Assembly: GCA_947034885.2 (NCBI GenBank)
Contig: OX344753.2
Span: 6,200,001 to 6,264,000, forward strand
Length of the DNA: 64,000 nucleotides
From: Thuidium tamariscinum
Taxonomy: Eukaryota > Streptophyta > Bryopsida > Hypnales > Thuidiaceae
Direction: 5' to 3'
A model generated the notes under the pieces. That model ran no database searches and was not told where the DNA came from. It worked only from the letters and a program-made list of their open reading frames with translations. Positions within the stretch are counted from its first letter, which is position 1, and every line of letters starts with the position of its first letter. Below are positions 600 through 64,000 of this stretch, in pieces. A program made the position numbers and the translations under genes.

Positions 600-1184
600 T
601 CCAAATCCATAATTATAGAATCTCTATTCTATAAAAAAAAGGTTTGAAATTCTTTATTTAATTCTATTTTAAATATTTAATTTTTTTTAATAATAGGTAT
701 AGATTGTTTATTACAACATTTTAACTTCTAAGATTGGCATTTTTCAATTCTATAAGTGAATGATTAATAATTTAGTATTTTAAATCATTCTCTACTTCTT
801 TCTACTTACTATCTTTTTCCTATATGTTGTATAATTTGAAATAATTTGAAATTTTTTAAATATGTAGCCAACTTCCTTTGAAAAATAAATTCAAAGGATA
901 ACCACCAATTTGAACTTTCTTTCATACAAATGTGACCTTGTAAAGTGCAGTTGCCTACTTTTTGTAGGGTCAAAAAAAGGATTTTTGTCAATTCAGATAC
1001 TAATATCTTCCAATCTATATGTTGGAAAATACTAAAAAATTTCCACATCTTTTAAAACCGGCATACTAGATAATTCTATGGTTACATTCATAAAAAAATG
1101 TTTAAAAAAAATTGGGACTTATACTAGATATGGTAGTTTGGGATCATTTTTTGGTGAAACACAATCAAAAGCATTTAGATATAA
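600..1184 (+). mobile_element. TTAA-family element, subfamily I, 3' half only
   Basis: This matches the right half of the intact copy at 27536-28471: the same order of a GAAATTCTTTATT block, an ATTGGCATTTTTCAATTCTA block, a TTTGTAGGGTCAAAAAAAGG block and a TTGGTGAAA..CAAAAGCATTTAG end. The left half is missing and the right terminus has decayed. At 658-661 it keeps an unoccupied TTAA at the position where the 44-kb relative carries an insertion. Confidence 0.6.
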
Positions 1185-4100
1185 ATCAAGTGTTAGGCTC
1201 CTCGCAAGGTAAATTTTTCATAGAAATAAACAATATCTCTTAAAACACTACTTGAGTTCCAAGAGGTCAACTATTAAATCTTGATTTTTGGACAATCGAG
1301 TTACTTTTATTACAATACAATAAGATGAAGTTCACTACTTAGAGAACTTCACCCTCAACAACATTGTATATTGTCTTTGTTGCAATTTTCATAGTTGTCA
1401 TTATACTGTTGTTTATTCTTTTGTCCTAGAAAGTATCTATTTTTTTTTTGATCTTCCTAAACTATTCAAGGAGATGATCCTTATGTATATTCCCTCATTG
1501 TCAATATGAACAAATATATTCTAATAATATCTCTTAAATACATTGTCTACTTGTGCTTAAATCTAATTTTTTTTCCTTAGGTTATATATATATACTTTAG
1601 CATTGGTCTATAAAACTGAAGTCACTATTTGAAGTATAACTATCTTATTTCATTTCAAAGTTTGTAATGGATGTACCTAATAACAAATTAAATAGATTTT
1701 AATTTGCTTCTCTATAGTAACCATTTTAGTATATTCAAGTACTACAAAAGAAGTGTACAAAAGAATAACTTATTTAGAAAGTCCAGTCTTTATTTTCAAC
1801 TTTAATTAAAAATTTGGCACCAATGTGTTAAACTAATTATAAACTTACAATAGTTTATGAGTTCATCTTTCTATGTGCAATAATAAAATGTTAGAATTAG
1901 ATTTATATTTCTAGTCTACATACTACAAGATTTTGATTTTCATCTAGCAAGAAGCATTTGGGGATCTTAACTTTTGAATGCCCTAGCTGCTCAAATCTAT
2001 CCTTGCTATTTATTTTAATGCAATAGGTTTCTATTTGTTTCACAAAAAAATAAAAAAAATAAAAATCTACCCTTGCCAAATTGAAAGATTGGAATGTTTG
2101 ACTATCATACTCTTTTTCAATAGAATGGTCAAATCATTTGTCCATTTCTCTACAATTCTAGGCCTATCTCCACCACCATTCAATATTGTCTATTTTGTTG
2201 ATCTTATTTTGAATGACAAATTAATTGAAATGAGTCTAGAAGAGTTTGAATTTTCTTGAACATGCAATGCATATTCAAAGTTTGAGGAAGAGAATGTGAT
2301 TATCTTGCAAAACTTCAAAGAAATTTTGCTATGAATTTCAAGAAATTGCATCATTACTACCTCCCAAAATTGGATGAAATTCAAAACCTAGCCTTTAAAA
2401 GATAGATTCAACCTAAAAGATTTGGTTTTGAGAGTATCTTCATTATGGCATTTCTAACATTCAATTGCAAACCAATCTCTTAATATTATTATCTTTGTCT
2501 CTAAGAATTGATCTTCTTAACACTACGCTTTGGGGGGTCAAAATACAACTTGAATGTGATGTTTTGTAGAAAGTTTGTTAGAATTTTGAAATAGTAGCTT
2601 TCAAATTGTAGAGGAGGTTGTCCATTGCCTTCAAGAAGATAAAAACTCATCATTCATTGGCCATATGAACAAGCTTTACGATTCCTACATATAAAAAAAA
2701 TTGGAACTCAATTTTGAATTGCCAACTAAGACCCGAGAAGATATCATTCAAGTCAAATAAAGGTATATTCTATTTTATGCTCAACTTTGTTCAATCTTTT
2801 TTTTTGTTCATAAAATTACTTAGAGAAAAGGTTCCAATACCTCAATATGCCATTAAAATTACATGTCTAATTTCATTTGAAATGTTTCTATTAATTAAAT
2901 GTTTTATATTCTACTTTATTTTTCATGCAAACTCTTAAAAGTTGGATGAACTCACCATCACCTTCAAATCTTATTTCACACCTTTAATTTTTGGATTACA
3001 ATCTAATTGAGGGGGGTGAAGCTTTGGTCATTTCAAACAATTTGGTTTCAACTTGATCATATCCAAAATTTATATGGTTGAAATTTTGTTTTATGAAATT
3101 TATACTATTCTCTAAAATTTTGAATGATTTGTTGTCAAAAAATTATTCTTTGTAGTTATTGAAAGACTTGTGAAGAATTACTACTTGACAATTTTTTGAT
3201 ACTAAACCACTAGAGTTTTTGGCTATCTTTTTACCAAAAATGCTCCAAAACTATCATTTCTTATATAAGTACCAAATTTTAGAAAAAAACAAAACATTTG
3301 TGAACATATGTAATATAAAGTCTTATAATATATTGACCTGAAAATGTGTGGAAAAAATTTTAAAAATTTTCACCATGTGGATTATGTGAGCAATTTTAAC
3401 TCCACCCTTGAGTTTAAAATCTACCACACGGGTTCTATGTCTAATCAAGTACTTTCTCTAAATTGGGTGTTCAAAGAGTGCCTTCCGAGCAATGAACTCT
3501 TTTAATCACCCCTTTGGATTCTAAAACATCTCTAATTCTACTAAAAGGATTTTTTGTTAAATTTTCTAATCTAATTCTAGTCTAAAATGTTAACTACTCT
3601 ACTCTAGTCAATCCTAGTTTTATAATGTGTCTAACTAACTGCTAATTCCAAGCATTTGGTAGAAGAAAACTTAACAACAAAACAATGAGAATAAAAATCA
3701 AATGGGATCGATTTACCTCCTCCGCATAAATCTCCATCGTCCCGTCATCAAACATCATCATGTGGATGTAATCACTAGTGATCTCACCATTGAACTCATC
3801 GTGCATGTCCATCTAATCCATGATAATTTCTCACTTTGTTGGTAAAATAGAAATCTATCCTAATTCAAAAACACTAATGGTTATAGAGAGCTAAATTAAT
3901 TGTGTATTCTTATTAATTCCTAATTCCCTGGTAATTTAGAAAATATCACAAATTAATTTATTCCACTTAAATGATTGAATTCCCAATAATTAAATCCCTA
4001 GGCAATAAATCTATTCTAAAAATCAATTGAAAATTATAGCTAATTTGTTAATTGTTGTTATTGTTTATTTTTCTTTTACGAAATTTCTAAACTATATTCA

Positions 4101-9824: not shown

Positions 9825-10370
9825 GGCAACTATAGTTATTATTCACAAGGTCGCATTTGTATGAAAAAAATGTCCAAAATGGTGGTGTGCTTTTGAATTC
9901 GTTTTTCAAGGCAATATGGCTACATGCTTGAAAATTTTCAGATCATTTGGAATTTTACAACACATAGGAAAAAAGTAGTAAGTAGTAACAGGTAAAGAAT
10001 GAATCAAAATACTAAATTGTTAAGAATTTAGCAATGGAATTGAAAATTGTCAATCCGAATGGTTGTAATATTATAATAAACAATCTACATTCTATGATTT
10101 CATTTTTTTCACATAGTATTGAAATTCAATAAAATGAAGAGCTTCAAAGTTTATTTTAGAGTAGGGAATCCATAATTGCCATCAAACAAAAACTCGTCAT
10201 AACTTTTGGCTCATTGATCAAAACATAATGATTCAAAGCTTTTCTTGGAAATATATATCTAAAAATTCAATTTTAAATTTTTATTTCTGAAAAAAATAAA
10301 AATTTCTAATCTATCCAAATAGCTCATTTATAGAAGAAGAAAAATAACACATTAGGACATAACTTTTGAC
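9825..10370 (-). mobile_element. TTAA-family element, subfamily I, fragment
   Basis: In the minus orientation this matches the middle of the intact copies at 27536-28471 and 59729-60649: the TTCAAGGCAATATGGCTACA block, the GTAATATTATAATAAACAAT block and the TCATAACTTTTGGCTCATTG block appear in the expected order. Neither terminus is recognisable. Confidence 0.55.
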
Positions 10371-15362: not shown

Positions 15363-15395
15363 GATTTGGAGGGCTCTAAATACAAAGGACTTTAA

Positions 15396-16067
15396 CCCCT
15401 AAAGCCCTGAGGTGTGTTTTTTGGCATTATAAATTTTTTGGGCAACTCACTACAAATGGAGTTTTTATTTTTTCCGCTGAAAGTTTTGCACAAGATGTGC
15501 CCAAGGAGTAGCTTTAAGGCCAACTCGGAGGGCAGCCTAGCCAACTGAAAAAACCTCTTTAAAAAAAACTTTTTTTTTGAAAGTGAAATTTCAGATTGAT
15601 TTTTTAGGTTTTTATAGACATGAGAAGCTTTGTTTCATCCCATTTGGATTAAGGAGTCAAAAGTTATGAGCAATTTTAGTTTGCGGGTAGGTATGGTTTT
15701 CAAAAATTCCATACCTACTTGCAAACTAAAATTGCTCATAACTTTTAATTCCTTAATCCAAATGGGATGAAACAAAGCTTCCCATGTCTGTAAAAACCTA
15801 AAGAATCAATTTGAAATTTCACTTTTGAAAAAAAAAATTTAAGAAGTTTTTTCAGCTGCCCGGGCTGCCCTCCGAGTAAAGAAAATGACATATCATGCCA
15901 TAACTTTTTAACCACAAAGTTAAAAGTTACAAAAATTGTTGAGCCTTAAAGCTACTCCTTGGGCACATCTTGTGTAAAAATTTCAGCGAAAAAATTAAAA
16001 ACTCCATTCGTAGTGAGCTACCCAAAAAATTTATAATGCCGAAAAACACACCTCAGGGCTTTAGGGG
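15396..16067. mobile_element. TTAA-flanked palindromic element (subfamily I foldback)
   Basis: TTAA at 15392-15395 and 16068-16071 flanks an element whose ends are perfect inverted repeats for at least 17 bases (CCCCTAAAGCCCTGAGG). The two arms match to the centre near 15705, so the whole element is a hairpin. The right arm keeps about 64 bases near 15885-15950 that the left arm lacks. Each arm is the 5' half of subfamily I (GGCAACTCACTACAAATGGA, CCCAAGGAGTAGCTTTAAGG), so it looks like an inverted duplication of that half. No coding capacity. Confidence 0.8.
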
Positions 16068-16181
16068 TTAAAAGAGTAAAATATTACAATGCATCCCATT
16101 AATTGTTATTGATAGATACATACATACTTACAAAAGTCAAAGAAAAAAATACCGGTAAATCTTTCTTTGAATTAAAATAGG

Positions 16182-18469: not shown

Positions 18470-19095
18470 AATTCTCGAGAAAATTCACATTTATGCTTGA
18501 AAAAAATATTAAGTAGTAAGAAGTAGAAAATGATTTGAAACACAAATTTGTTAAAAATTTAGTTATGAAATTGAAAAATGACAATTCCAATTGTTGTAAT
18601 GTGGTGATAAAAAATCTATATCCAATTTTTTTTTCAAAATATCAAAATAAAGTTAAATAAAGGACTTTTGAAGTAGAAAGTCTATAATTGATTGCAACCT
18701 AAAATTCACAACTTTCACCTTGTCAATATTAATGGAATGGTTCAAAGTCATCACATATATTATAAAAATCCATAGTTGAAATTTTTGTTTTTTGAAAAAA
18801 TGAGTTTTGAGTTTTCTAGGTTGTAAAAAACATACATATTGTACAATAATTTTTTAACCATGTAGTTAAAAATTACAAAAATTGTTGCACTTCAAAGCTA
18901 ATTTTCACAAAATAGCATGTACATGCTTGACTACATGCCGGTTTAAAGTACAACAATTCTTGTAACTTATGATTGCATTCTAATCTCGACTACATGCTCT
19001 TTAAAAATTGCAAAGAATAGAAATAAATATTCCATTTGTAATGAGTTGCCTAAAATTGCTATGTTGCGAAAAAAATAGACTTTGTTTCTTTGGGG
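18470..19095 (-). mobile_element. TTAA-family element, subfamily I, decayed copy
   Basis: Minus orientation. The right edge reads CTTTGGGG followed by TTAA at 19096-19099. Inside are the TAACCATGTAGTTAAAAATT and TCATTTGTAATGAGTTGCC-type blocks shared with the copy ending at 60649. The left terminus is lost. An unoccupied TTAA is preserved at 18653-18656, at the position where the 44-kb relative has an insertion. Confidence 0.6.
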
Positions 19096-19099
19096 TTAA

Positions 19100-20600
19100 G
19101 AGAACATGTTTGACCATTCATAAATCATTTTAAAAAATGAAACCGTTTAAAAATCATTTTGAAGCCCCTTAATTCTCCAAACTTTATAATAGAGCATTTA
19201 AAAGAAAAACTTTGACATGGTTTGAAAAAGCATCTATATATGATGTAAATCAATAAGTGCCATTGAATAAATGACTCATTATAAATGATGCATTTTTTCC
19301 TTCTATTATGTTGAAGATGTCTATTTAATGCAATAATTATGGTTCTAAGCTATTTTAGGTTTGTAAGTTAGAGCCTACTACTTCAAACTCAACAACTCAT
19401 GATTTCTATTTATTTTCCCTCAATTATTACATATTTTACTGCCATGAAAACTTTTTATAAGACTAGTAGAAACCACACTTATACAATGAGTGGTTTTCAC
19501 TATTGCTTGATGGAATTAGGCACATTGGGTACTTCAACAATCAGTAATTCATATACTTACATTCAGTAGTCACCTTCAACCCAATTGTATCCCTGTCTAT
19601 AATTGTTCAACATTTAGGAGTTAAAATGTTTGACCACTAAATATAGGATTGCAATTGGTTAAAGGGGCAACAAAGAGTATGCAAACCTTTTTTTTCAACA
19701 TCCTTTCTACTAGTGCAAATGGAGATATTATTTACAAAATATAACAAAACAAAAAACTATGCTAAGAGAAACCATATCGATAACCATATCCATTTAGTAT
19801 CATCCACTCTAACTACTTATTCAAGGCTATAGTTTTCTAAAGTAGACAAATATTTTTACCAAGAGCATAAATATCAATTGCTACTATTCAAAAAGGAAAA
19901 TTTATATTAAATTATTTGATAAAATATTCATTGAAGGTAAAATTTAATAATATTTTTGAATTAATCATATAAGTGATACTAAACTCTATTTTGGGTATAG
20001 TATGCTACTCAGCTTCTTCACATGTAGTTTTTGTCAATTGAATGCAAAGCCCCCTTCTCTTCAATTCAAAGTGAATAAAATTCTAAATAGTAGCATGGAA
20101 ATCCGTTAAACAACAAAATGCCAAAAAAATTGTAATGAGATAATGGCCTAAATGTGTCTAATGGATGATAGGAAATCCTTCTATATAAGACAAGAGCATA
20201 GAATGATGTTCATCTTTGTAATTTTGTATAGAAAGGGAATGTCTTGCATAGTAGTGAAAAGACAAAATAATTTCCATAAACAAAACTTTCATGATCCGTG
20301 AATCAAATTGGCAATCCTTTATTCCATGAGATCCTTGGCAAATTGAAATACATCACCTTTCTTTGCTCGACTTCCCTCAATTCTCCCCTCTTCTCACTAA
20401 TTGATTGTCTAGTTCTCCTCATGAACTCACCTACTTGACCCCTCCCGTAACCTCCATTCTATTCTAACTATCCATTTGGTAGAATATACTAGACAACAGT
20501 TATAGGTCCCACAATCCAGTTATTCACTTATCATCCTTCTTAGATAGAAAATATCGTAATCAGTAATTTGATCTCTAATGAATGCTTTTGTTATATTTAA
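19100..20600. other. AT-rich intergenic DNA
   Basis: Nothing was recognised. Confidence 0.6.
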
Positions 20601-21521
20601 TCCCTAAAAAACCAAGCGTCTATCCAATATACACAAAAAATCTTGGTTAGCTTCCCACAAAGTCATTTTCAATTGGGGGCTCATGAAATTTGGTGAAAAA
20701 ACATTTTTTACAATTAGATGCTTGGATCAAAAGTTACGTTTCATAAACTTTTGGGGTAGTTTAGGCAATTTAGAAATCTTTTGGTAATCTTTCCCAAACA
20801 GCTCATTAACTTTTGAAATTTCGTATGTATATAACTAATATATTATGGCATACAATTGTCCACAAAAAAAAAATTAGTCTTCAAATTGCATTCTAAGAGG
20901 AGTCAAACTTTGTTATTTATGTTGGGTGTGTGAGTGTGCAAAAAAAATATTTTCTTCTAATTTCAAGAAATCTATGAAATCTATGAAATCAAATTTCATG
21001 AAATTTATTCCACGTACTCCAAATGTTTGTCCCTAACTCTTCATCTCATTTGGATTCCAAATGAAAAAATTTCTCATTGCACATAAATCATCAAAAGCTG
21101 ACTATTGTATTGCCAATTCATCTAGACTCCTTGCATTGCACAATGATTAAGAAGAAACTAGACTCCACATTTTCCTCTAAAATTTGTCATGAGCAAAGCA
21201 AAGATTATATACTTTTGAATGTTGAACATCTTCATTTTTGTGTAGGGCATAAGTTTTATTGCAAAAAGGACCAAAGTCTTCTAACCTTATTTTGCTAGAA
21301 TAAAAAAGATTTTTTTTCTCACTTCAAACATAATAATCTTTCAATTGGCATGGTCAAATAGGCTGAAATTTTTTCCATACTTTAAAAAAGTACTTAACTC
21401 TAGTTTTGTAGGGTTGGAGTTTACCGAAAAAAATTCAACTTTCATTTTTGAATACAATACCAAAATAATGCAAATCTTCCATAATGTCTCCTTGAATCCC
21501 CTTCCTTTGGTCTTTTTGGAG
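20601..21521 (+). mobile_element. TTAA-family element, subfamily III
   Basis: TTAA at 20597-20600 and 21522-21525 brackets a 921-base element with ends TCCCTAAAAAACCAAG and CTTTGGTCTTTTTGGAG. It shares its internal order with the inverted copy at 51675-52538 (AACTTTTGAAATTT, TGGCATACAATTGTCC, AGGAGTCAAACTTTGTT). The short open frames inside it are not conserved between copies. Confidence 0.65.
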
Positions 21522-21624
21522 TTAAGCAAATGATTCACACACTACTAAACGGATGATTTCTATAATGATTAGCTAGGCATTGCGAGGACAAGGTAAGTAT
21601 ACCTTAAACTTCACAAATAAGCAA

Positions 21625-25255: not shown

Positions 25256-25259
25256 TTAA

Positions 25260-26038
25260 CCTCTATAGTCTTCATGACCCTCTAGGGTACAAAATGGATT
25301 TCAAATAGGCTCCTACAATCTCAATTTTCATCTTGATTTTTTAAACTTATTTTTAGAAGATAGAAGATCTAGGAATATCATTTTATTTTAATCCATACCT
25401 GAAAGTAAATTTTTTGCCAACAAGGTTTGTTGGACAACACTAAAATAATTGCACAAATTTAAAATAAAATTTTCAAAATTTTCTTTTTTATAGAAAGTAT
25501 TCTTATCTATGTCAATGAATAGATTGGATTCATTCTATATGGACCAAAGATGAGAAAATTATCAACCTTCTTTTGGAGGCAATCTAAACACCTTCTTGAA
25601 TTCATTTTTTAATGCATTCTTCACAATTTTTAAAAGATAATTGTTTTATAGGGTCAAATTTGCTTGTTAAAACAATCTCACCATTAGAATAATAGAGTTG
25701 CAATTTCATCTAAGAGCATTTAACAATTGAATTTTTTGTTCAATCTTGAACACAATCCTATTTATAAAAAGTTTAAGAATTAAAAATTCAATATGTATTT
25801 TTTGAAATTTTTTTCCTAGACTTCCAACTCATTTCTCAATATAATTTTTTATGACATCAAAGTTTCTGAAATTTCTTCTACACATTTTTATAACAATCTT
25901 GTATAAGACCCTACAATTATACATACATACATACATAAATATGCAATAATATAGTTTATAAAATTATTTGCACTTTGCAATAGAAATGGTAGTTTTGAAT
26001 GAAATTTGATGAAAAAAGTGGCCTTGAGACTTTAGGGA
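25260..26038 (+). mobile_element. TTAA-family element, subfamily II, shortened
   Basis: TTAA at 25256-25259 and 26039-26042. Ends are CCTCTATAGTCTTCATGACC and, at the right, GGCCTTGAGACTTTAGGGA. Internal blocks (AACAATCTCACCATTAGAAT, TTTTTTCCTAGACTTCCAAC) match 44766-45687 and 53220-54133. At 779 bases it is shorter than those two. An ACAT-type microsatellite lies at 25921-25937. Confidence 0.7.
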
Positions 26039-26530
26039 TTAAGTTTTAAACAATTTTAAAATATGAAGTGGTGAAATGTGATCACTAGTCATAAATAATA
26101 GTTTTAAGGATGTCTTTGGGGGTGAAAAAGGGGCAATAGAGTGTATTTTTTCAATGTATTTAGAATTCATTCATCATTTGTTCCTTAGTAATGCAAAGAA
26201 TTTTAGGCAAAACTTAGATTTAGTTTAAAATACCTCCTTTGAAAGTTTTTCAAGGTTCTCATCCAAAGAAATAATCTTAAGTATATAAATGATCAACATA
26301 CAACTTATAAATGTTTTCAAATTAGTTAGAAAAGCATTTAACTCTGAAATTTCTTTAAAAGCACAATTTATGTAGTGAGCATTTGAGGATGAAAGCTTCA
26401 CTAATACCTTCTAATAGTAATTTCTTCATGTTTCAAACTTTCAATAATATTATATACTTTGTGCTAATTATTTATGAAAAAAGATTAGATAATAGTTATT
26501 TCAATTAAAAGATAATCCACTTTACACAAT

Positions 26531-27005: not shown

Positions 27006-27535
27006 ATTGATGAAATTTAATTTAGTTCATCTAGTTCTATTTCAATACATTGTCTATACATCAAAATTTTGTAATTGAAAAGAAGGTTTGGGATAGCTTC
27101 AAATTGTTGCCTCTAAGTGGACAATCATTACAAAATGTTTGAAAAAGTCATCAATTGAAAGTGAATTTTATGCACAAAATTGCCAAACCATTAATGAAGA
27201 CAAAAACTTGACTCAAATATTCTACATAGAATTATGCAATTGTTGAAGAGAGTGGAGGAATGGACTTTTTGGCTAGACAATAGAAATTTTAGGTACACCT
27301 TGTGAAGAATGAGATATGGGTATTCTTGATGTCCGAGAAATTGTTTTCAACGTCAGTTTTGAACTTTGAGATTGCAAAGCTACTCTTCAAATGTAGTTTC
27401 ACCTTGCTTACACAAAAGTGAAAGCATTATTACACCCAACAAGGGATATTCTAACTCTAAAAAAACTTGAAAATTCATTTTTGGTTCCAACACAACATGC
27501 ATGTTTATCTTTAATGGTTAACTTAAACAACTTAA

Positions 27536-28471
27536 CCCTCTAAATGACCAAATTGTATTTTTTGGTAACATAGCAATTTAGGGCTGCTCACTATAAATTA
27601 AGATTTTATTATTTTTCTTCAAAATTTTCACACAACATATACCCAAGGAGTAGCTTTAAGGCCCAACAATTTTCATAGCCTTTTGACTACATAGTTAAAA
27701 AGTTATTGTAAGATACATAGTTTTCATTGCTTGGTGGACAGTCTGGACAACAAAAAAAACTTTCCAATTTTTTTTTTGAGAAATTAAAATCTGAAATTGG
27801 TTTATTAGATTTTTATACAAGAGGAAAGCTTTGAATCATTCTATTTTGATCAATGAGTCAAAAGTTATGAGGAGTTTTAATTTGTGGTAGTTTGTGGCAA
27901 GTTATAGAATCTCTGCACTACAAAAACAATTTGAAATCCTTTATACAAATTCAATTTTTAATATTTTTGGAAAAACAAAACAAAAATAGGTGTATGTTTT
28001 TTATTACAATATTTTAACCATTGGGATTGGCATTCTTCAATTCTATAAATAAATTGTTTACAATTTAGTATTTGGGCTCATTTTCTACTTCTTTGTACTT
28101 ACTATTTTTTTCCTATATACTATACAATTCCAAATGATTTGAAATTTTTTAGGCATGTAGCAAACTTGCCTTGAAGAATGAATCCAAAGGGTAATCACCA
28201 ATTCGAACTTATTTTTGTACAAATGTGACCTTGTAAAGTGCAACTATCCAATTTTTTGCATGGCCAAAAAAATGATTTTGTCAATTCAAATGCTAATATC
28301 TTGCAATTTACATGGTGAAAAATTTTGAAATTTTTTCTACATCTTTTCAAACAAGAATACTACAAGATCCTATGGTTACATGTGTCCAAAAAATCTAAAT
28401 TTTGGTACATGTATTAGAAATGACAATTTTGAAGTGGTTTTGGTGAAAATGTAGTCAAAACCATTTAGGGG
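27536..28471 (+). mobile_element. TTAA-family element, subfamily I, complete (936 bases)
   Basis: TTAA at 27532-27535 and 28472-28475. Ends are CCCTCTAAATGACCAA and CCATTTAGGGG. Ordered landmarks used to recognise other copies: GGGCTGCTCACTATAAATTA, CCCAAGGAGTAGCTTTAAGG, TACATAGTTAAAAAGTTATT, TGAGTCAAAAGTTATGAGGA, ATTGGCATTCTTCAATTCTA, TTGAAGAATGAATCCAAAGG, TGCTAATATCTTGCAATTTA and CTACAAGATCCTATGGTTAC. No reading frame spans it, so it would depend on a transposase supplied elsewhere. Confidence 0.8.
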
Positions 28472-28475
28472 TTAA

Positions 28476-35389: not shown

Positions 35390-35935
35390 TGGGGAAAAAA
35401 ATTCCAACCAAATGCCAAAGTGTAAAGTTATGTTGCCCAAAAATTTAAATAGTTGGATAATTCAAGCATCTTTTTCTAAAATCCATTTCAACTTTTGAAA
35501 TTTTGCATATATGTAGCTAATATAATATGATATAAAATTATAAGACAAAAGAAAATTTTAATTTTCAAATTGCAACCTAAGTAAAGTCAAACTTTGTTGG
35601 GGCAATTTTGGCTAAAAAGAAACAACATTTTTTTTTCTAATTTCAAAAAATCATCAAAAAATGACTTGTGTATTGCAAGATCACTTGCCTATTCTATATT
35701 CTAGGGTGATTTCAAATAAGGTAAATACCTTATTTCCCTTGAAAATTTTAATGAATGCACCTAATGAGATATACTAATGAATGGTGTAAATACTCATTTT
35801 TGTATAGAGTTTTTTTAATCCAAGAGGGCTTGAAGTCTAGATAGTGTCCCATTTTGTAAGAACAAAAAGAATTATTTTCTCACTCCAAACATTATATTCT
35901 TTCAATTCACATATTCAAATTGATTGGGGGGGGGG
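35390..35935 (+). mobile_element. TTAA-family element, subfamily III, fragment
   Basis: Shares CAACTTTTGAAATTTTGCAT, AAGTAAAGTCAAACTTTGTT, TTTTTTCTAATTTCAA and CTCACTCCAAACATTAT blocks with 20601-21521. No termini remain. It runs into a 10-base G homopolymer at 35926-35935. Confidence 0.5.
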
Positions 35936-38691: not shown

Positions 38692-38709
38692 ATGCTGAGA
38701 GGGAGGTGA
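38692..38709 (+). promoter_or_regulatory. Five-codon upstream open reading frame next to the main start
   Basis: ATG CTG AGA GGG AGG TGA ends 38 bases before the main ATG. It has G at -3, a better context than the main ATG (C at -3, A at +4), so scanning ribosomes would be expected to meet it first. Confidence 0.4.
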
Positions 38710-38747
38710 GAGCGTTGGGTGCTGTAAGGGTGGAGGTGGAGAGCCGA

Positions 38748-41099
38748 ATGAGGCTTGGAGGCGTGACCGTGCTCGTAACTCCGAACGGCAATCTGGGGCG
38801 GGGCTTTGGCGAGCTTGGTGGCATGCCCATGGCGCCGCCTCGCCCTATTCCTCCGTTGGCCATGCCGCGTCCCCCGCCGAAGCACTACTCGTCTCCATCT
38901 CTCTCGCTGGGTCCTCCCGAGGGGAGTCAGACGGCGGAGAGCGAGCAGCAGTTGCAGCAGCAGCAGAAGAGCAAGGAGGAGGAGTATGAGTCGCGCTCCG
39001 GGAGTGACAACATGGAGGGGGGTTCTGGGGACGAGGATCCGGATACAAATCACCCGCGCAAGAAGAGGTACCATCGTCACACGCCGCGGCAGATTCAGGA
39101 GATGGAGATGCTGTTCAAGGAGTGTCCGCACCCGGATGACAAGCAGAGGCAGCAGCTGAGCAAGGACTTGGGTTTGGAGCCCCGGCAGGTGAAGTTTTGG
39201 TTCCAGAACCGGCGGACACAGATGAAGGCGCAGACGGAGCGCGCAGAAAATTCTATGTTGCGGCAGGAGAATGAGAAGGTGCGGTCGGAAAATTTGCTGA
39301 TGCGGGAGGCGTTGAAGAATCCGCAGTGCCCGCATTGTGGGGGTCCGGCGACGGTGGGGGAGATGTCGTTCGATGAGCAGCAGCTCCGCATTGAGAACGG
39401 GCGACTGAAGGAGGAACTGGATCGCGTGTCTGCGCTTGCGGCGAAGTACCTGGGGCGGCCTATCACGCCGCTGGCTGCGCTTCCGAGCTCGTCGCTAGAT
39501 TTGCAAGTGGGGAGCTTCGGTGGCGGGGGGATGCATCACCACTCGAGCATGGATATGGTGGCGGGGCCGAGCGTGGCGGATGTGGCGACGCGACCGGGGG
39601 GGTTGACGGAGGCCGAGAAGCCCATGGTGGTGGAGCTCGCGGTAACGGCGATGGAGGAGCTTGTGCGGATGGCGCAGGCGGAGGACCCGCTGTGGGTGGG
39701 AGTGGGAATGGGCGACGGGAAGGAGCAGCTGAACTACGACGAGTACGTGCGGCAGTTCCCGCGCGGGATTGGGATGCGGCCCCCGGGGTTGAAGACCGAG
39801 GCGACGCGCGAGACGGCGCTGGTGATGATGAACGGCGTGAATTTAGTGGAGACGCTGATGGACGCGACCCAGTGGATGGACATGTTCCCGTGCATGGTGT
39901 CGCGCGCACTCACCGTGGACGTGCTGTCGACGGGCGTGACGGGCAACCGCAACGGCGCCTTGCAGCTCATGTATGGGGAGCTGCAGGTGCTCTCCCCACT
40001 GGTCCCCACACGGGAGATTTACTTCCTGCGCTACTGCAAGCAGCACGCCGAGGGTGTGTGGGCCGTGGTGGACGTGTCGGTGGACTCGCTGCGCGACAAT
40101 CCCCCGCCGTCGCTCATGCGTTGTAGACGCCGACCCTCGGGGGTGCTCATCCAGGACACGCCCAACGGGTACGCGAAGGTGACGTGCGTGGAGCACATGG
40201 AGTACGATGACCGCGCGGTGCACCGCATGTACCGGGAGCTTGTGAACACTGGGATGGCCTTCGGTGCTCAGCGCTGGCTCGCCACTCTGCAGCGCCAATG
40301 CGAGCGCCTGGCTAGTCTGCTCGCCAGCAACATTGCCTCCCGGGACCTGGGCGGGGTGCCGAGCGCCAGCGGCCGACGCAGCATGCTGAAGCTCGCGCAG
40401 CGCATGACCAACAACTTCTGCGCGGGCGTGAGCGCGTCCACGGTGCACACATGGACCACCTTATCGGGCAGCGGCGACGACGACGTTCGCGTCATGACGC
40501 GCAAGAGCGTGGATAACCCCGGGGAGCCGCACGGAATCGTCCTCAGCGCCGCGACTTCCATGTGGCTGCCCGTCTCCCCCGCGCGCGTCTTCCAATTCCT
40601 CCGCGACGAGCGCCTCCGGAGCGAGTGGGACATCCTGTCTAACGGCGGCATGGTCACGGAGATGGCGCACATCGCCAAAGGACAAGACCCTGGCAACAGC
40701 GTCTCACTCCTCCGCGTCAACGCCATGAACTCCAGCCAAAGCAACATGCTCATCCTTCAAGAAAGCTGCACCGACGTCTCGGGATCGCTCGTCATCTACG
40801 CCCCAGTCGACATCCCCGCCATGAATCTGGTCCTGCAAGGCGGCGACCCGGCGTACGTCGCGCTCCTCCCCTCAGGATTCGCAATCCTCCCCGACGGTCC
40901 CAACCCATCAGCAGATCAAACGGGATCCATCACGGAATCTGGGCGCGGAACGGGCTCACTGCTCACAGTTGCATTCCAGATCCTCGTGAGCAGCATTCCC
41001 TCGGCACGCCTCTCGCTCGAATCTGTCGCCACTGTCAACAACCTGATCTCGTGCACAGTGCAGCGCATCAAAGCTGCGCTTCTGGTGGAAGATGCTTAG
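38748..41099 (+). CDS. Class IV HD-Zip transcription factor (GL2/ATML1/PDF2/ANL2 type), single exon
   Basis: A 783-residue nuclear DNA-binding protein. In order: a proline- and glutamine/glutamate-rich N-terminus; a basic RKKR (104-107) leading into a homeodomain (about 103-162) with helix-3 core [11 protein letters not shown]; a zipper-loop-zipper dimerisation segment (about 163-236) with the family's CPHCGG pair (C194, C197) and GEMSFDEQ; a START domain (about 288-515), known to bind lipids in this class; and a C-terminal SAD region to about 780. Length suits the family (roughly 720-800). Known members control epidermal identity and bind L1-box sites. I chose the ATG at 38748; the open frame extends to a GTG at 38706, and a stop lies in frame at 38670. 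The start context is weak, so Met26 or Met28 could also serve. No intron interrupts it, although seed-plant members have several. Codons favour G in the first half and C in the second. Confidence 0.96.
38945..38968 (+). repeat. CAG-rich run coding for glutamine
   Basis: A short CAG-type run within the HD-Zip coding sequence gives the QQLQQQQ tract before the homeodomain. Such tracts vary in length between alleles and species. Confidence 0.7.
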
Positions 41100-42559: not shown

Positions 42560-42822
42560 AGGTGGATACGTCACTTATTCTTACTGTGCCTAGTTCCTGT
42601 TATCATGCTGTTCAGATTTTTATACACTCTTGTTGGCGAGTGAAAGCATGTTCCAACGCACCAAAGAACAAAGGATTTGGATACTGTATGCAAAAGTTAT
42701 TAACGGTCAAAGTCCGTTTTTGAAAGTGCCATCTGTAGTCTGGGTACATGACTGATTTTGGAAATGTATGTGCATTGTAGATGGTGCTTTAAGGTCATTT
42801 GCCATATTGGGTGTACCTACCT
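42560..42822 (+). mobile_element. TA-flanked MITE, family M1, 263 bases
   Basis: Ends AGGTGGATAC and GTACCTACCT with TA at 42558-42559 and 42823-42824. Very similar to 22370-22641 in the same orientation (GTTGGCGAGTGAAAGCATGT, ACATGACTGATTTTGGAAAT). It lies about 1.5 kb beyond the HD-Zip stop codon, at the edge of the GC-rich island. Confidence 0.75.
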
Positions 42823-42919
42823 TAATTGGGTCTAGGGTTGGGTTTTTTTTGGCTTTCAGGTGCTAGATTGCACCGAGAGAGAGTAATTTTGCTAAAAAAA
42901 ATGGTAGTAGAAGCTTGAA

Positions 42920-44092: not shown

Positions 44093-44142
44093 TTAAGCCC
44101 TAAAAGACCAAGCTATGATTTTGGCAACAAAGAAAATTTAGG

Positions 44143-44518
44143 CAACTCATTATGAATGGAGTTTTCTCTTTTTTTTTCTTTGAAATTTTTACTCGACATT
44201 TAAACAAGGAATATCTTTAGGGCCCCAAAATTTTCACAACTCACTATGAATGGAGTTTTCTCTTTTTTTTTCTTTGAAATTTTTACTCGACATTTAAACA
44301 AGGAATATCTTTAGGGCCCCAAAATTTTCACAACTCACTATGAATGGAGTTTTCTCTTTTTTTTTCTTTGAAATTTTTACTCGACATTTAAACAAGGAAT
44401 ATCTTTAGGGCCCCAAAATTTTCACAACTCACTATGAATGGAGTTTTCTCTTTTTTTTTCTTTGAAATTTTTACTCGACATTTAAACAAGGAATATCTTT
44501 AGGGCCCCAAAATTTTCA
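44143..44518 (+). repeat. Tandem array, four units of 94 bases
   Basis: Units start at 44143, 44237, 44331 and 44425, each beginning CAACTCAYTATGAATGGAG and including ACTCGACATTTAAACAAGGA. They are almost identical (one C/T difference seen in the first). Single-copy equivalents occur in other subfamily I elements, so the array arose inside this copy and recently. Confidence 0.95.
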
Positions 44519-44765
44519 CAACTCTTGACTACATGGTTCAAAAGTTATTACATAATATGTAGTTTTTTTCACTAGCTGGGCAATTGAAGTAGATTGAAGA
44601 ATACACTTTTTCCATACATGTTAATTTGAAATTGATTTTTTCAATTTATATATATTTGGAAAGCTTAGAATGATTTCTATTTTAATTAATGAGATATAAG
44701 TTATGAAGTATTTTAGTTTGCAGGTAGTTCCTACTCTATAATAAAATATGAAGTCCTTTTCTTAA

Positions 44766-45687
44766 CCCCTAAAGGACTGTTGTTCCCTCAAGGGATAAAA
44801 TGGACTTTGGGTAGGTTCCTATCACCTTATTTTTTGGTGAAACTTTTTGTAATTGTCTCATAAGATAGAAAAATTGATTATCTTTAAGTGAATATAATTT
44901 TTACTTCAATTGTTGCTTGGGAGCAAAAGTTATACACTACAAAAGTTCAAAAATAAACTCAATGGGCAATACATTTTTTTTCACAAAGACAAAATTAAAA
45001 TTAAAATTTTCTTCCCTAAACTAATATATTCTTGTCTACATGTGACTATTTGATTCATTCTATTTGGACTAGTAATAACGGGAGTAATAAAAAAATTGTA
45101 GACAATATTGTGTGTGTTTTTGGCAATTTTAGCATCTGCTTGAAAAGTACATTGTAGGATTTACTTTTGAATGCAATTTTCACAATTTTTCAAAAGAAAT
45201 TGTTTGACAAGGTTTCATTTACTTACTAGAACAATATCACCATTGTCATTATTGTATTTCAATCTTGTATTAAAGCTATCAACCATTTAGTTTCTCTTTC
45301 AATCTTGGACCTAATTCTACTTAACAATTTTTAAAGAAAGAAATCAAGGTTTCTTTGTGAATTTTTTCCTCTAGATTCTTGAATCAATTTTCTAACATAA
45401 AAATCTTAAATTCAAATTCTATAGATCATAAAAATTCCAGAAATGGTGGTCAAAGTCAATTGAAATTGTAGACTGCAATTCAATTTTTTTTCCCTCTAAC
45501 TTTGAATGCTCATGTCTTCCAATCTATAAGGTCAAATTTCATGAATTTTGCAATATGATCTCAAAAAAGTTAAGTACAAGATCCTATAGTTAGATTTTCT
45601 TAAATTTTGTTTTTGTGGATGAATGCAACAAAAATGGTAGTTTTAAGTGTTTTTTGACCCCAAAAAATGGTCTAAGTCCTCTAGGGG
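44766..45687 (+). mobile_element. TTAA-family element, subfamily II, nested (922 bases)
   Basis: TTAA at 44762-44765 and 45688-45691; ends CCCCTAAAGGACTGTTG and GTCCTCTAGGGG. It lies inside a subfamily I element. Removing it with one TTAA restores the normal order of the host element (GTCCTTTTC-TTAA-CTCAATTTT), which matches unoccupied relatives at 658-661 and 18653-18656. This shows that TTAA is the duplicated target. No coding capacity. Confidence 0.85.
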
Positions 45688-46394
45688 TTAACTCAATTTT
45701 CAATATTTTTGAAAAAAATAAAACTACAGGATTTAGTTTTCTTATTAAATCATTACAACCATTGGGATTGGCATTTTTCAATTATATAACTAAATTATCA
45801 ACAATTTAGTATTTTGAATTATTCTCTTGTATTTTCTACTTACAATGTTTTTATCCTATGCATAGTACAATTCCAAATGATCTAAAACTTTTCAAGCATG
45901 TAGCCAACTTGCCTAGAAGAATGAATTCAAAGAAGCACCAATAACTCATGAACATTTTTTCATGCAAATATGACCTTATGAAGTGTAGATGCCTTGTTTT
46001 TTGTAAGGCCAAAAGAATGATTTTTGTCAATGTAAATGCTAATATCTTGCAATTCACATTGTGAGAATTTTTGAAAAAATTTCCATATCTTTTCAAACCA
46101 ACATATTACTAGATCCTATGATTTCTTGTATTGAAAAATGATTTTTTTCCAAAATTTGGTAATTGTATTAGGATTGGCAATTTTGAAGAGTTTTTGGTGA
46201 AAACATAGAGAACTTTGTGGCTTATGGAATATGTCATATATAAATCTACAAAAAGGGGCCTTTTTGTTTTATTTTCTCCATTTAGTAGATAACTACCTTT
46301 TTTGCACAAATTCCAAAGACACCTTATTTGTTATTAAAAAATTTATAAAAATATTCCTATCTTCAAATGTTTGGATACTAAAATCTTATGCCAT

Positions 46395-51670: not shown

Positions 51671-51674
51671 TTAA

Positions 51675-52538
51675 TCCCTATAGAACTATAGGTTTCTCCA
51701 AGCAAAAATTGTGGATTTTGTGGTACACTATTGAAAAATGAAATTTGAAACTTTAAAAAGATTCAACCATGAAAACTTGAAGTAAAGTATTTTATTAGAG
51801 CATAGAATTTTTTTTCAATTCTTATGAAATAAGGTCAAGAGACTTTGGGTCTTTTTGGAGTAAAATTTTTGCTATATGCAAAAATAAGGATTTTATCCAT
51901 TCATAAGTTTTTTATGTAATTTTATCTCATGAAAAATTTTAGAAGCAAATATAAAGTCTAGCTTAGTCTAAATCATCATACAATGCAAGGAGATTAAATT
52001 AATTGGCAATACACAAGTCATTTTTTTGTGCAATGAAAAATATTTTATTTGACATGAAAATAGTAAAAAGTTAGAGACAAACATCTTGAATATGTCAAAA
52101 AAATTCAAAAATTTTGAAATCATATATTGCAAGATAATGGGACTTGAAGTTAGAAGAAATGTTTTTTCTTGAAATTGCCCCAATATAGCTAACAAAATTT
52201 GAATCTTCCTAAGATGTAATTTGAAGATTGAAATTTGTTTTTTTGAAAAATTGTATGCCATATTTTATTAGTTACATACATGCTAAATTTCAAAAGTTGA
52301 CAAGTTTTTGTGCAAAAAATCCTCTAAAGATTCCTAAATTGCCCAAGTTGCCTATAAAGTTCAAAGCAACATAACTTTTGATCCAAACACCTGATTGAAA
52401 AAAAAATAGATTTTTATTGAAGAGGCATATATTTGTATGTTGTGTCCAAATTTCACAAATATATAACAAAAAATGACTTCTCAAGATCTTACTTGAGATT
52501 TCTTGTGCAGATTGAATGTACACTTGGTCCTTTAGGTG
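51675..52538 (-). mobile_element. TTAA-family element, subfamily III, inverted
   Basis: TTAA at 51671-51674 and 52539-52542; ends TCCCTATAGAACTATAGG and CACTTGGTCCTTTAGGTG. Minus-orientation match to 20601-21521. 864 bases; the frames inside are not shared between copies. Confidence 0.65.
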
Positions 52539-52542
52539 TTAA

Positions 52543-53215: not shown

Positions 53216-53219
53216 TTAA

Positions 53220-54133
53220 CCCCTAAAAGCCCATTGTCCTCTCGAGGATAATTTGGAGTTCGGGTAGGTTTCGTAGACCTCAACTTTTAATGAATCTTCT
53301 TGAAAATTTCTTATAAGATATTAAATCTGATTAGCTTTGTGGTAATATAATTTTTATTTCAATTGGTGCCCAAGAGCAAAAGTTATACCACAAAAAGCGC
53401 GGATTTTAACTCAACGGGCAGAAAAATAAATCCACAAAAACTTGAAATTAAATTAAATTTTTTTTTTAATCTTATAGATTATATTTTGGTCTACGTGTGA
53501 AGATTTGATTCATTCCATTTGGATTAGTTATGTGAAAGTTATGAACAATCTTGTTTTTAGGCAGTTTTTGAAAAAATAACTTATAGGATTCATTTTTGAA
53601 TGCAATTTTTACAATTTTTCAAAAAAAATTGCTTGACAAGGTTAAATTTTCTTGCTAGAACAATCTCACTATTGGAATTACTATGTTTCAATTCCATCTT
53701 AGAGCTATTAACAATTTAATTTTTCTTTCAATCTTGAATTTACCCCTACTTAATAATTTTTTAAGGAATGAAAATCAAGCACCCTTTTTGTGGGGATTTT
53801 TTTCCCTAGACTTTCAACTCAATTTTTGAACACAAAATCTTCTTAATTCAAAGTCCATAGTGTAAAAAAATTCAACAAATGGCAATCAAAGTCATTTGAA
53901 CTTGTAGGACAATGTTTAAAAAAACTATGTTTTCCAACTTTGAATGCTCATATCTTCCAATCTATGGGGTCAAACTTCATGAAATTTTTACCACATGATT
54001 TTAGACAAACAAAGTAGAAGATCTTGTGGTCAAATTCTATAAAAACACTTTTTTTTGTTCTTTTGGATGAACACAACAAAAATGGCAGTTTTGAATGGTT
54101 TTTAACAGAAAAATGGCCTTGGGCCTTTAGGGG
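53220..54133 (+). mobile_element. TTAA-family element, subfamily II, complete (914 bases)
   Basis: TTAA at 53216-53219 and 54134-54137; ends CCCCTAAAAGCCCATTG and CCTTGGGCCTTTAGGGG. Matches the nested copy at 44766-45687 along its length (TCGAGGATAATTTGGAGTTC, TGCTTGACAAGG, CTTCCAATCTATGGGGTCAA). No coding capacity. Confidence 0.78.
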
Positions 54134-55061
54134 TTAATGTCAAGTACTATTGACTTTAACTACTTGGGTGATGGGGATTGGGAAACTCAAAATCTACAAA
54201 TATATACAACTGACAACTGATTTTAATGTACACCTACAAAGCCAATCAAATGCTTCCTATTATAAATAAAAAAAATTTCCATACATCTAGGAGAGAATTA
54301 TTCTTGCTCTAAGGGAATATAGTTCACCTTAGTTAATAATGTTATGCATTTGCATCATTCACCTACTCCATTACCACAATCTTAGCAACCCTTTAGGGTT
54401 CATTGCAAGAAACATCAATCTTATTCTCTATCGCAATTGGAGTGATGATGTTATCCAACTTTTAAAGCTTGAGTCCAATGAACATGAAATTTCTAATGGA
54501 GATGTCCAACTTGATGATAATTAGATTCCTATTTTTAGAAATAATTTTTTTTTTAATATTTAAATTTAAATTTAGTTGATTTGTCACATTTTGAGACTTA
54601 GGGTTTTCCACTATGTTTAGAGTATCCAAATTGATCAATCTAGAATTGAAATTTTGGTTGTCTATTCCCACACTAGGTGGACATAATTATATTCACCGAG
54701 GGGCACTTAAAAATATATTATTTTATATCCTTTAAGTCCATGAATATAGGGCTCCTTGGTCTGAGCACTTTTGAAAAGTGAAGATAGTGTCAACTTCATT
54801 TTTTTGGTGAAATTTGATCACCATCGGGTCCTTGCAAATGGCTAGTTTTTAGTTTTTGTTTGTGATTTTCTATATATCACTAGTTTATACAACATTATAG
54901 GGCTTTTTTTAGGCCTTATAAGGCCCAATTGCCTCAAATTCAAGCCCATAGAAAGAAAGAGGGAAAATGTCTTAAGAAATGCCAAACAACAATAATGCCC
55001 TTGCACTTTATGTGCCACAATGTTTCAAAAATCTAATTTCATCTGTTGTACAAAGCCAAAT

Positions 55062-56715: not shown

Positions 56716-56717
56716 TA

Positions 56718-58751: not shown

Positions 58752-58755
58752 TTAA

Positions 58756-59348
58756 GTCTGAAAGGAACAATGCCATTTCTTTTTGTCCAAAAACACTCAA
58801 ATTTTCCATTTCTATTGCATTCATCCAAGAAATTTTTTTTTCTTAGAATCTAACCATATAACCTTCTACTTTACTTATTTTAGATAATGTAGTAAACATT
58901 TCATGAAGTTTGATTGTATAGATTGGAAGATATTAGCATTCATTAGATTGAAAAAGAAGTTTCAATAAATAGTAGCCTACAAATTTAGATGGCATTGACT
59001 GCCAGTTGTAGGAAATTTTTAAAGTTTTTTGTGTTGAAGAATTGATTTGAAAGTTTGGGAATCATAATTAAAAAATACATTTGATTTTCATTTCTTAAAA
59101 AATTGTTAAGTAGTAGTAGGTTGAAGATTGAAAGAAAAATTGAATCATTAATAGCTCAAAGATGGGATTGAATCACAATAACTTCAATGTTAAGATTGTT
59201 CTAACAAGTAAATTTAACCTTGTCAAACAATTTTTATTGAAAATTTTAAAAACTACATTTGGATTAAACCTTACAAGTTATTTTTTGGAGAAGGCACTCA
59301 AATTGCCTAAATTTTTTTTTTCCTTAGGGTACAATGGTCCTTTAGAGG
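58756..59348 (-). mobile_element. TTAA-family element, subfamily II, internally deleted
   Basis: TTAA at 58752-58755 on the left; the right flank is TCAA (59349-59352). Ends are GTCTGAAAGGAACAATGCC and CAATGGTCCTTTAGAGG. Minus-orientation match to 53220-54133, but only 593 bases, so part of the interior is gone. Confidence 0.6.
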
Positions 59349-59728
59349 TCAAGTATCTCTAAAAATTACAATGACTTTCATCCAAGCAATAACAAGAAAA
59401 AAATGGCATCCATTGGGTGGATAATGAATATATTTAAGTGCCTATAGCAAGATTTATGGGAATTGAAAGAAGTTCATCTAAGTACATTGAAAAAGTTGAT
59501 TCTTGTCTATTCTGTAACAATGTGATTAGCTTGGTTACTTTGTGCTTTGTAGTTGTTTGTGCAAGGTTTAATATCATGAATGAGCTTAAGGATAGGGAAA
59601 AAAAACTTTCAAAAATATAGATGGCCTAATTTGTCTAGGCAACAAAGACTCATGATGTACATTTTCCTTCTCTTAGTAAATAAAATGTACAAAATAAGAT
59701 TTTAAATAGTACATGTATGCAATGATAA

Positions 59729-60649
59729 CCTTTAAAGTTCCTTGACTATGTTTTCACTAAAAAGGCTCCTTAACTACCATTTCTAAGACAAAGTACCAAA
59801 CTTTAGGGGAATTTTTTTTTCTTATATACATATAACTATAGGATCTTATAGCAAGCTAGTTTGAGAAGATGTGAAGTTTTTTCCAAAAATTTCTACCATG
59901 TGGATTGCACAATACAAGCATTTGAATTGACAAAAATACTTTTTTTAACGATACAAAAAAACAAATTGTTGCACTTCACAAGCTCACATATGTATGAAAA
60001 AATGTTCATGTTGGTGGTACTTCTTTGGTTTTATTCTTCAAGGCAAGTTGGCTATATGCTTGAAAATTTTCAAATCATTTGGAATTCTTTCACATTTTAG
60101 GAAAAGGATAGGAAGTAGAAAAAAGTAGATAATGATTCAAAATACTAAATCATTCAGAATTTATTTATGAAATTGAAAAATTCTAATCCCAATGGTAGTA
60201 ATGTTGTAATAAACAATCTACATTCAATGCACATATTTATTTTCCAAAATATTAAAAATTGAGTAAAATAAAGGACTTCAAAGTTTATTTTAGAGGATGA
60301 AATCCATAATTGCTCTCAAACTAAAACTCTTCATAACTTTTGATTCATTAATCAAAATAAAATGATCAAAGCTTCACACATGTACATAAATGAAGAAAAT
60401 CATTTTTGTTTCTAAAAAAAGTAATTTTTTTAGATCTGCCCAAATTGCCCAAATTAAGAAAGAAACAATATATCATGCAATAACATTTTAATTATGGAGT
60501 TAAAAGTTTTGAAAATTATTGGGCCATAAAGATATTCCTTGTTCACATGTTGTATGAGAATTTCAAAGAAAAATAATAAAAACTCCACTTATAGTGAATT
60601 GTGTAAAATTGCTATACTGATAATAAAACACAACTTGGTCCTTTAGGGG
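59729..60649 (-). mobile_element. TTAA-family element, subfamily I, complete (921 bases)
   Basis: Right flank TTAA at 60650-60653; left flank ATAA (59725-59728). Ends CCTTTAAAGTTCCTTGAC and CAACTTGGTCCTTTAGGGG. Minus-orientation match to 27536-28471 over its full length. Confidence 0.75.
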
Positions 60650-60653
60650 TTAA

Positions 60654-61829: not shown

Positions 61830-62159
61830 AGAGAGAATAGTCTCTAAAAACCATACCTACCCACAAACTCCAACTCCAAATAACTTTCATTTCATCAATC
61901 AAAGACTCATTTTTAAAGAAGTTTTATGAGCTACCCGGTTTATCCAATGGGCAATGAAATATATATATATATATATATACAATGCAATAAAATTTTAAAT
62001 ATCTAGTCAAAAGTTATGAAAATTGTTGAGCTTTTAAAGCTACTCCTCAAGTACATATTGTGTGAAATTTTCAATGAAAAAAATAAAAATTCCATATGTA
62101 GTGAGCTACTCCAAATCACTATATTGCCAAAAAAAAAATCTTGTTTGGACCTTTAGGGG
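61830..62159 (-). mobile_element. TTAA-family element, subfamily I, 5' part only
   Basis: Right edge GGACCTTTAGGGG followed by TTAA at 62160-62163. Contains TTGAGCTTTTAAAGCTACTC and CATATGTAGTGAGCTACTCC. The rest of the element is missing. An AT microsatellite lies at 61959-61979. Confidence 0.6.
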
Positions 62160-62163
62160 TTAA

Positions 62164-63094: not shown

Positions 63095-63268
63095 TTAATC
63101 CCTAAAGTTTCAAAGAGTGTTTCTTAGGAACATAGATTTTTGAGCACCTCACTACAAGTGGAATTTTCATTTTTTTCTTTTGAAATTTTCATACAAAATG
63201 TGGCCAATGAGTTTCTTTAAGGCACAACAATTTTTATAAATTTTGACTGAATGGTTAAAGATTGTTGG

Positions 63269-63777
63269 CAGTGATAGAGTTGGCAGTTATTGCCACTTTT
63301 GGGTACATTGTGTAAACAATGTACCCAAAAGTGGCAATAACTACCAATTCTAATAAATTTAAAATTTTAATTTGGGTTTAGTACACTTGGCATGTTCTTA
63401 TAGGCCAAAGAATTTTAAATTTTAAATCTTTAAATCTTCATTTCCCTCCCCCCCTTCTCCTCTTGTAAGTTTTTGAAACCAACTGATTGACAAACATTAT
63501 GGGACAAGTGATCATGTATTGGTATTCATATATGTATTTGTATCTATATTTGTATTTGTATTTGTATTTGGACCGTATCCATATAATCCATATAGTATAT
63601 ATAGAGTATCCATATCCGTACCCATATCTGAATGGTTCAAATTAAATCTTACATGATCAATGGCTTGGGAATTTTTGAGAAATCAACAGTGATTACAAAG
63701 GTAAGCTTCTTCTTTTTTGAGAGAGGAGGGGGGGGGGGCTAATTAATTGACTTGGGTGGTATGCCACTTTTCGTCAC
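63269..63777 (+). mobile_element. hAT-like non-autonomous element nested in a TTAA element
   Basis: ATTGTTGG at 63261-63268 and ATTGTTGT at 63778-63785 form an 8-base duplication with one mismatch. The left end starts CAGTGATAGAG and the right end, inverted, GTGACGAAA, so two bases may be lost there. 8-base duplications and CAGTG-like ends fit hAT. Inside are a perfect 27-base hairpin, an irregular ATTTGTATTTG/ATCCATAT minisatellite and a G homopolymer (63728-63738). No coding capacity. Related copy: 26531-27005. Confidence 0.6.
63285..63342. repeat. Perfect hairpin, 27-base arms
   Basis: 63285-63311 and 63316-63342 are exact reverse complements with a 4-base loop (GTAA). The arms begin AGTTATTGCCACTTTTGGG. 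Lies at the left end of the hAT-like element. Confidence 0.95.
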
Positions 63778-64000
63778 ATTGTTGTATAATATGGTTTTCT
63801 TTTTGAGCTTGGATAGCTAAAAAAAGATCACTTTTTAAAGAAATAAAGATTTGAAATTTTTAGGTTTATATATATGTCAAAATCTTTGAGTCATTCAATT
63901 TTGATTAATGACATGAAAGTTATGAGGAGTCTTAGCTTGCGGACACTTATAAAATCTCTACTCCAAAATAAACTTTGAAGTCCTTTATACAATCCAATTT

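Follow-up and report, generated by a model that had tools for sequence, protein, structure and literature searches.

A TTAA-bounded element nested in an older relative in plant nuclear DNA: a probable non-autonomous piggyBac-type transposon

The stretch of plant nuclear DNA analyzed here (64,000 bases, referred to as the window) poses the question of which type of transposase placed an element bordered on each side by TTAA into the middle of a related element. We consider it probable that a non-autonomous element of the piggyBac type (B1) inserted into an older, similar TTAA element of this nuclear genome. The argument depends on three points: the identity of the target site, the properties of the related copies in the window, and the structure of the element ends.

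The nested element and its target site

The body of B1 comprises 922 bp (44766-45687) and is flanked by TTAA at 44762-44765 and 45688-45691, so that the ends and coordinates proposed by the first-pass annotation of this DNA hold. Its ends, CCCCTAAAGGAC and CCCCTAGAGGAC, pair as an inverted repeat at 11 of the 12 terminal bases, and at 12 of 16 bases over a longer stretch. The interruption of a relative of the element at 27536-28471 (A1 in Table 1, there with its TTAAs), which had likewise been claimed, is evident from the flanks of B1, which match A-type copies with 71-77% identity: in BLAST comparisons, the right flank aligns with 27948-28449 (77%), and the left flank with A1 (71%) and with 60270-60610 (72%). 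The own ends of this interrupted host copy are located at 44093 (TTAA) and 46225 (ATAA). It also contains a tandem array (44143-44524) in which a 94-bp unit is repeated 4.1 times with 99% likeness, a recent tandem expansion in an old element.

Removal of B1 and one TTAA yields a sequence that was set against six A-type relatives unoccupied at this site; five of these lie within the window, and the sixth is cut by its end. Two of them read TTAA at the nest site, at 658-661 and, inverted, at 18653-18656; these are the empty sites that the first-pass annotation had cited, and both are real. Two others read TTTA (the inverted copies at 60264 and 10130), and the remaining two read ACAA (the 27940s copy, with one additional base, and the 63970s copy). 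Only favorable empty sites had been cited, and the very relative named in that annotation, 27536-28471, does not read TTAA. A single TTAA outscored both zero bases and two TTAA (TTAATTAA) in all six relatives. Among 341 fills of 0-4 nt, TTAA ranked 1, 1, 3, 26, 8 and 56 in the six relatives, and it came first when the scores were summed (318, compared with 310 for TTTA and 256 for no fill). Since a single TTAA performs best against none or two in every relative and leads the summed score, TTAA is part of the target, as had been proposed, and a TTAA-like four-base site was present before B1 inserted. The wording "exact TTAA duplication" is nevertheless slightly too strong: because TTAA is palindromic, duplications of 4, 2 or 0 bp leave identical letters, the stagger is consequently not strictly fixed, and TTAA itself is found in two of the six empty relatives. 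A four-base stagger would be expected by analogy with piggyBac.

A different duplication outside the TTAA, which the first-pass annotation had named as a finding that would speak against its reading, was looked for. No direct repeat wider than TTAA flanks seven of the eight complete elements, and in B1 the repeat is longer by one base (C). The base directly outside the TTAA is C at 10 of 20 element ends (P 6e-4, uncorrected), which possibly reflects a target preference beyond TTAA.

The window is composed of 67% AT, and an unfiltered TTAA-anchored scan of it for TIRs gave no TTAA excess, because AT-only matches swamp such a scan; a GC filter was therefore added after this outcome had been seen. 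The filtered scan makes no use of a consensus and counts GC-containing inverted 12-mers that match at 10 positions or more and lie between directly repeated tetramers spaced by 300-1500 bp. It returned 3 matches in 7,071 TTAA pairs, where 0.14 are expected (Poisson P ~4e-4), and 12 in 590,997 pairs for all 256 tetramers; AATT likewise gave 3 matches, in 25,906 pairs.

These data bear on three alternatives to an insertion at TTAA. That the TTAA merely forms the outermost portion of the inverted repeat, the target duplication being another one or absent, draws on the fact that a palindromic TTAA extends any inverted repeat and that four of the six unoccupied relatives do not read TTAA; the bases kept at the unoccupied site, the preference for a single TTAA over none in all six relatives, and the scarcity of wider direct repeats make this very improbable. 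Somewhat less remote, yet still distinctly improbable, is a TA- or TTA-duplicating element of the Tc1/mariner or PIF/Harbinger type with own ends A...T and a preference for T-TA-A, so that TTAA would be part element and part target. Given the palindrome, a duplication of 2 or 0 bp predicts an identical sequence and an identical empty site, and the sole mismatch among the eight complete elements (ATAA) concerns the outermost base; such an element would, in turn, have to select the outer T and A almost without exception, and ends such as CCCCTAAAGG are not known from Stowaway or Tourist elements, which counts against it as well. Chance inverted repeats in AT-rich DNA, finally, have in their favor the base composition and the many AT-only pairs without TTAA excess in unfiltered scans; they are contradicted by the over-representation of GC-containing TIRs at TTAA and by copies of about 0.6-0.98 kb that align with 72-76% identity (BLAST, best E 4.8e-144), and their probability is negligible.

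Related elements in the window

The window contains eight complete elements, which measure 680-944 bp with their TTAAs; seven have TTAA on both sides, and one has TTAA and ATAA (Table 1). Element-related sequence, complete and decayed copies of several families included, occupies 11,294 of the 64,000 bases (~17.6%; BLAST E up to 1e-8, matches within 100 bases merged), which bears out the earlier description of the elements as abundant. BLAST sorts them into an A group (A1, A2, the host copy of B1, and fragments), a B group (B1, B2 and B3, with F related), and a D group (D1, D2, and 35465-35920), while C shares A-type sequence. Identities between copies amount to about 68-79%, with 79% as the best value for A copies, and by these figures the copies are old. 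Claims of relatedness rest here on BLAST because the global identities between different types (0.64-0.70) have no shuffled baseline. The BLAST match between A1 and A2 overruns one TTAA by about 28-30 bases, a stretch in which ungapped agreement is 10/30. Within the terminal 16 bases, between 6 and 16 positions of the TIRs agree, depending on the element; the TIRs of A1, A2, D1, D2 and F are weak (6-11/16).

TABLE 1 Positions of TTAA-bounded elements and related copies in the window
Feature	Coordinates	Strand	Remarks
Partial A-type copy	611..1185	+	nest site unoccupied, TTAA 658-661; own right end TTTA
A-type fragment	9842..10299	-	unoccupied site TTTA
C, inverted duplication of A-type end sequence	15392..16071	.	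680 bp; TTAA both sides; long hairpin
A-type fragments	18484..19099	-	one TTAA end at 19099; unoccupied site TTAA 18653-18656
D1, D-type	20597..21525	+	TTAA both sides, 921 bp between
F, related to B type	25256..26042	+	779 bp; TTAA both sides; weaker TIR 10/16
A1, complete A-type	27532..28475	+	TTAA both sides, 936 bp between; weak TIR 6/16
D-related fragment(s)	35465..35920	.	ends uncertain
Host A-type copy interrupted by B1	44093..46225	+	left end TTAAGCCCTAAAAGACC; right end by homology ATAA
B1, nested TTAA element	44762..45691	+	922 bp between TTAAs; ends CCCCTAAAGGAC / GTCCTCTAGGGG
D2, D-type, inverted vs D1	51671..52542	-	73% over ~600 bp; TTAA both sides
B2, complete B-type	53216..54137	+	72% BLAST identity to B1; TTAA both sides
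B3, decayed B-type	58752..59352	-	one end TTAA (well supported), other TTGA (weak, score 47)
A2, complete A-type, inverted vs A1	59725..60653	-	flanks ATAA (left) and TTAA
Fragment with A/C-type end	61975..62163	+	TTAA 62160-62163; other end not found
A-type copy from TTAA 63095	63095..64000	+	cut by window end; unoccupied site ACAA

The hairpin element C stands apart by its architecture. Both of its arms match A-type ends, its outer 120 bases agree with their own inverse at 0.90-0.97 (ungapped), the whole arms match at 252 of 277 aligned positions with 126 gap columns, and the BLAST self-match is 86% over 355 bases. C would have formed, or have been evened out, after the A copies diverged, since its arms resemble each other more closely than do any two A copies (79% at best in BLAST). 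Folded as RNA, C reaches -448.8 kcal/mol, compared with -144.8 (sd 6.8) for 20 shuffles (z ~-45); on the basis of this predicted fold, the hairpin at 15392-16071 might be a source of siRNA. An inverted pair of repeats of ~500 bp (14078-14593 and 14854-15352, 86% identity) adjoins C.

At the right edge of the window, the A-type copy that starts at 63095 is interrupted by a different sequence of ~0.5 kb (about 63260-63820). This sequence begins with a near-perfect hairpin consisting of ttggcagttattgccacttttgggtacattgt and its inverse, with one mismatch.

Element ends and the superfamily

No transposase domain, and hence no DDE_Tnp_1_7 (PF13843) domain of piggyBac, was detected by Pfam (E up to 1) in any of the 79 window ORFs of at least 72 aa, defined stop-to-stop and excluding those wholly within 38.0-41.3 kb; two sub-threshold matches were both unrelated to transposases. 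ORFs below 72 aa were examined by motif patterns only. Patterns for piggyBac catalytic motifs matched once, in a 60-aa ORF (54845-55024), and this was taken as a chance match. tRNA and Rfam scans found nothing.

Elements of this structure, with a TTAA target, nested in one case, are present in several copies and carry no transposase domain in long ORFs; we infer that the enzyme that moved them was a transposase of the piggyBac superfamily. Supplied in trans, it would bind ends of the CCCCTAAAGGNCC type, excise the element, and insert it into a TTAA, so that a TTAA then flanks the element at either end. The remaining TTAA-bounded copies of the window would have arisen by the same route; they form several families of ~0.7-0.9 kb. 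The first-pass annotation had called the elements non-autonomous and piggyBac-like. Their non-coding character, their TIRs, the TTAA and the CCC ends uphold this description, while no transposase or autonomous copy that would complete it was found in the window.

The ends were compiled from 18 of 29 TTAA-anchored candidates and the left ends of A1 and A2; of the 11 candidates dropped, one (58752) was later regained by homology. Of these 20 ends, 15 begin with C and 4 with T, and at each of positions 2-4, C is found in 18. The CCC-type termini described earlier are real, with the reservation that TTAA and/or resemblance to CCCC guided the selection of the ends, which partly accounts for their resemblance to CCCC. 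Stretches resembling CCCCTAAAGGNCC (score of at least 8) occur 238 times on both strands, and 20 of them follow TTAA where 2.2 are expected, an enrichment that is partly circular because the consensus was derived from such ends. CCCTAAA, found in the ends, is also the plant telomere repeat; a tie between the two was considered and left as a probable coincidence. A search of viral contigs for the consensus end TTAACCCCTAAAGGNCCAAG gave 0 matches.

Additional ends were placed by homology. Strong placements were obtained for the right end of the host copy (ATAA, score 136), for B3 (TTAA, 110), and for the copy at 611 (TTTA, 97); weak ones concern the other end of B3 (TTGA, 47), the D type (TTAC, 42), and the copy at 10177 (TTAC, 40). 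Together with the left ATAA of A2, one of these seven ends is an exact TTAA and all seven are within one base of it, a tendency favored by the TTAA contained in the queries. In a control with one query (A1R), 200 random window stretches, which may include real copies, gave a median of 19, a 95% value of 36 and a maximum of 120. The ends of the 9842, 18484 and 61975 copies and the left end of 35465 were sought in the same manner and, with scores of at most 33, not placed. The ends placed by homology are more decayed, and five of them begin with CCTT, GCCA, TATC, GTCT and CCTC.

TTAA and CCC-type 5' ends are attributed to piggyBac in a passage of PMC10813416, and ATAA beside TTAA is called typical of piggyBac in an excerpt from PMC8634313. 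For piggyBac MITEs, a section of PMC2872659 gives TIRs of 12-19 bp with a CC[C/T]T terminal motif. Most of our ends read CCCCT, so that CCCT starts one base inward and base 4 is mostly C (18/20) and not T; family III of that coral study likewise starts with CCCC.

Another superfamily that inserts at TTAA, Sola3 or Kolobok, could have moved the elements instead. Sola3 generates a TTAA duplication. Sola is counted among the superfamilies present in plants in an excerpt from PMC9033089 and was also recorded in Ceratopteris (PMC6890710), and Kolobok makes TTAA duplications as well, according to the passage on it in PMC9587614. The termini given there for Kolobok, 5'-RR/YY-3', differ from those found here, which are mostly CC/GG: 19 of 20 ends open with C or T, 18 have C as their second base, and two purines stand first in none of these five ends placed by homology. 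A TTAA target combined with CCC ends fits piggyBac and speaks against Kolobok, and on balance the ends agree with the former and not with the latter. The trait that defines the superfamily is its transposase, for which the scanned ORFs gave no match. With Kolobok set aside by its published terminus description, we regard Sola3 or Kolobok as an unlikely source of the elements, and their assignment to piggyBac as likely.

The piggyBac family is best known in animals, and the ends of piggyBac itself (IFP2), from the cabbage looper, begin with CCCTAG. According to the relevant passages of PMC10905368, IFP2 has in common with our elements a TTAA target and a short TIR (13 bp), and it differs from them, in which no transposase was found, in that it encodes a transposase and has a 19-bp subterminal repeat. 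The coral CMITEs share with the window elements the TTAA duplication, the CCC ends (CCCCTCAGTGTCCG in family III and CCCTTTAAGCCCTA in family II), and short non-coding copies, and an empty allele is reported for them; they are ~100 bp long with family averages of 84-97% identity, whereas the elements studied here reside in a plant, measure 680-944 bp and are more diverged (compared with the CMITE descriptions excerpted from PMC2872659).

Plant context and neighboring features

The window elements possess TIRs, lack coding capacity, and occur in several similar copies, as MITEs do. Plant MITEs of the Stowaway, Tourist, hAT, Mutator and CACTA types are likewise non-coding, AT-rich and TIR-bearing, with many copies, but they make target duplications other than TTAA (as described in parts of PMC12550479 and PMC12595863). 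A length of 800 bp is often taken as the MITE limit (excerpts from PMC10004981 and PMC12550479), and six of the eight complete elements exceed it. A survey of 207 genomes with MITE Tracker, which used this limit, assigned MITEs to five superfamilies plus Micron (PMC12550479, in the part cited). Only five superfamilies had been described in plants by 2008, as stated in an excerpt from PMC2528002; in 2022, six plant TIR superfamilies were distinguished, with a table that includes Sola, and the word piggyBac is absent from that paper (PMC9033089). The first-pass annotation had considered piggyBac transposases rarely reported in land plants, a fair statement that is not absolute: a survey of the fern Ceratopteris lists 1,230 PiggyBac copies with 122,417 bp (PMC6890710), and PiggyBac is named among angiosperm MITE superfamilies and among plant superfamilies in passages of PMC10004981 and PMC10794571, respectively. 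Among the matches listed for the open-licence literature, none dealt with piggyBac-type MITEs that are abundant in a plant. Elements labelled piggyBac have been recorded in plants earlier, and those of the B1 type are probably another such case, dense in this window.

We tentatively extend this reading to a plant lineage that could have maintained a piggyBac system of its own, one that was long-lived and diversified. Such a system would have given rise to several non-autonomous families of ~0.9 kb that make up a sizeable share of the DNA around genes, as the coverage of the window might illustrate, including a hairpin form able to feed RNA silencing directed against the rest. If the DNA around a plant gene has such a density of piggyBac-type elements, surveys built on five or six superfamilies and an 800-bp limit undercount them. 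The search for a native plant piggyBac transposase would be rewarding, since the insect enzyme already serves as a footprint-free tool in rice (passage in PMC10905368).

Two further features of the window deserve mention. An open frame of 808 aa (38673-41099) encodes homeodomain, START and PDF2_C domains. It is a class IV HD-ZIP protein, of a class not known outside land plants and their close algal relatives, and identifies the host as a plant. Class IV HD-ZIP genes usually bear introns, and the uninterrupted frame may represent a retrogene or a lineage with intron loss. A second family of short repeats of ~275 bp (22368-22643, 42569-42824, and 56442-56717) is 74-91% identical between copies. 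With ends that read TAAGGTGGGTAC and GTACCTACCTTA, or close to these, it looks like a TA-flanked MITE of the Tc1/mariner type.
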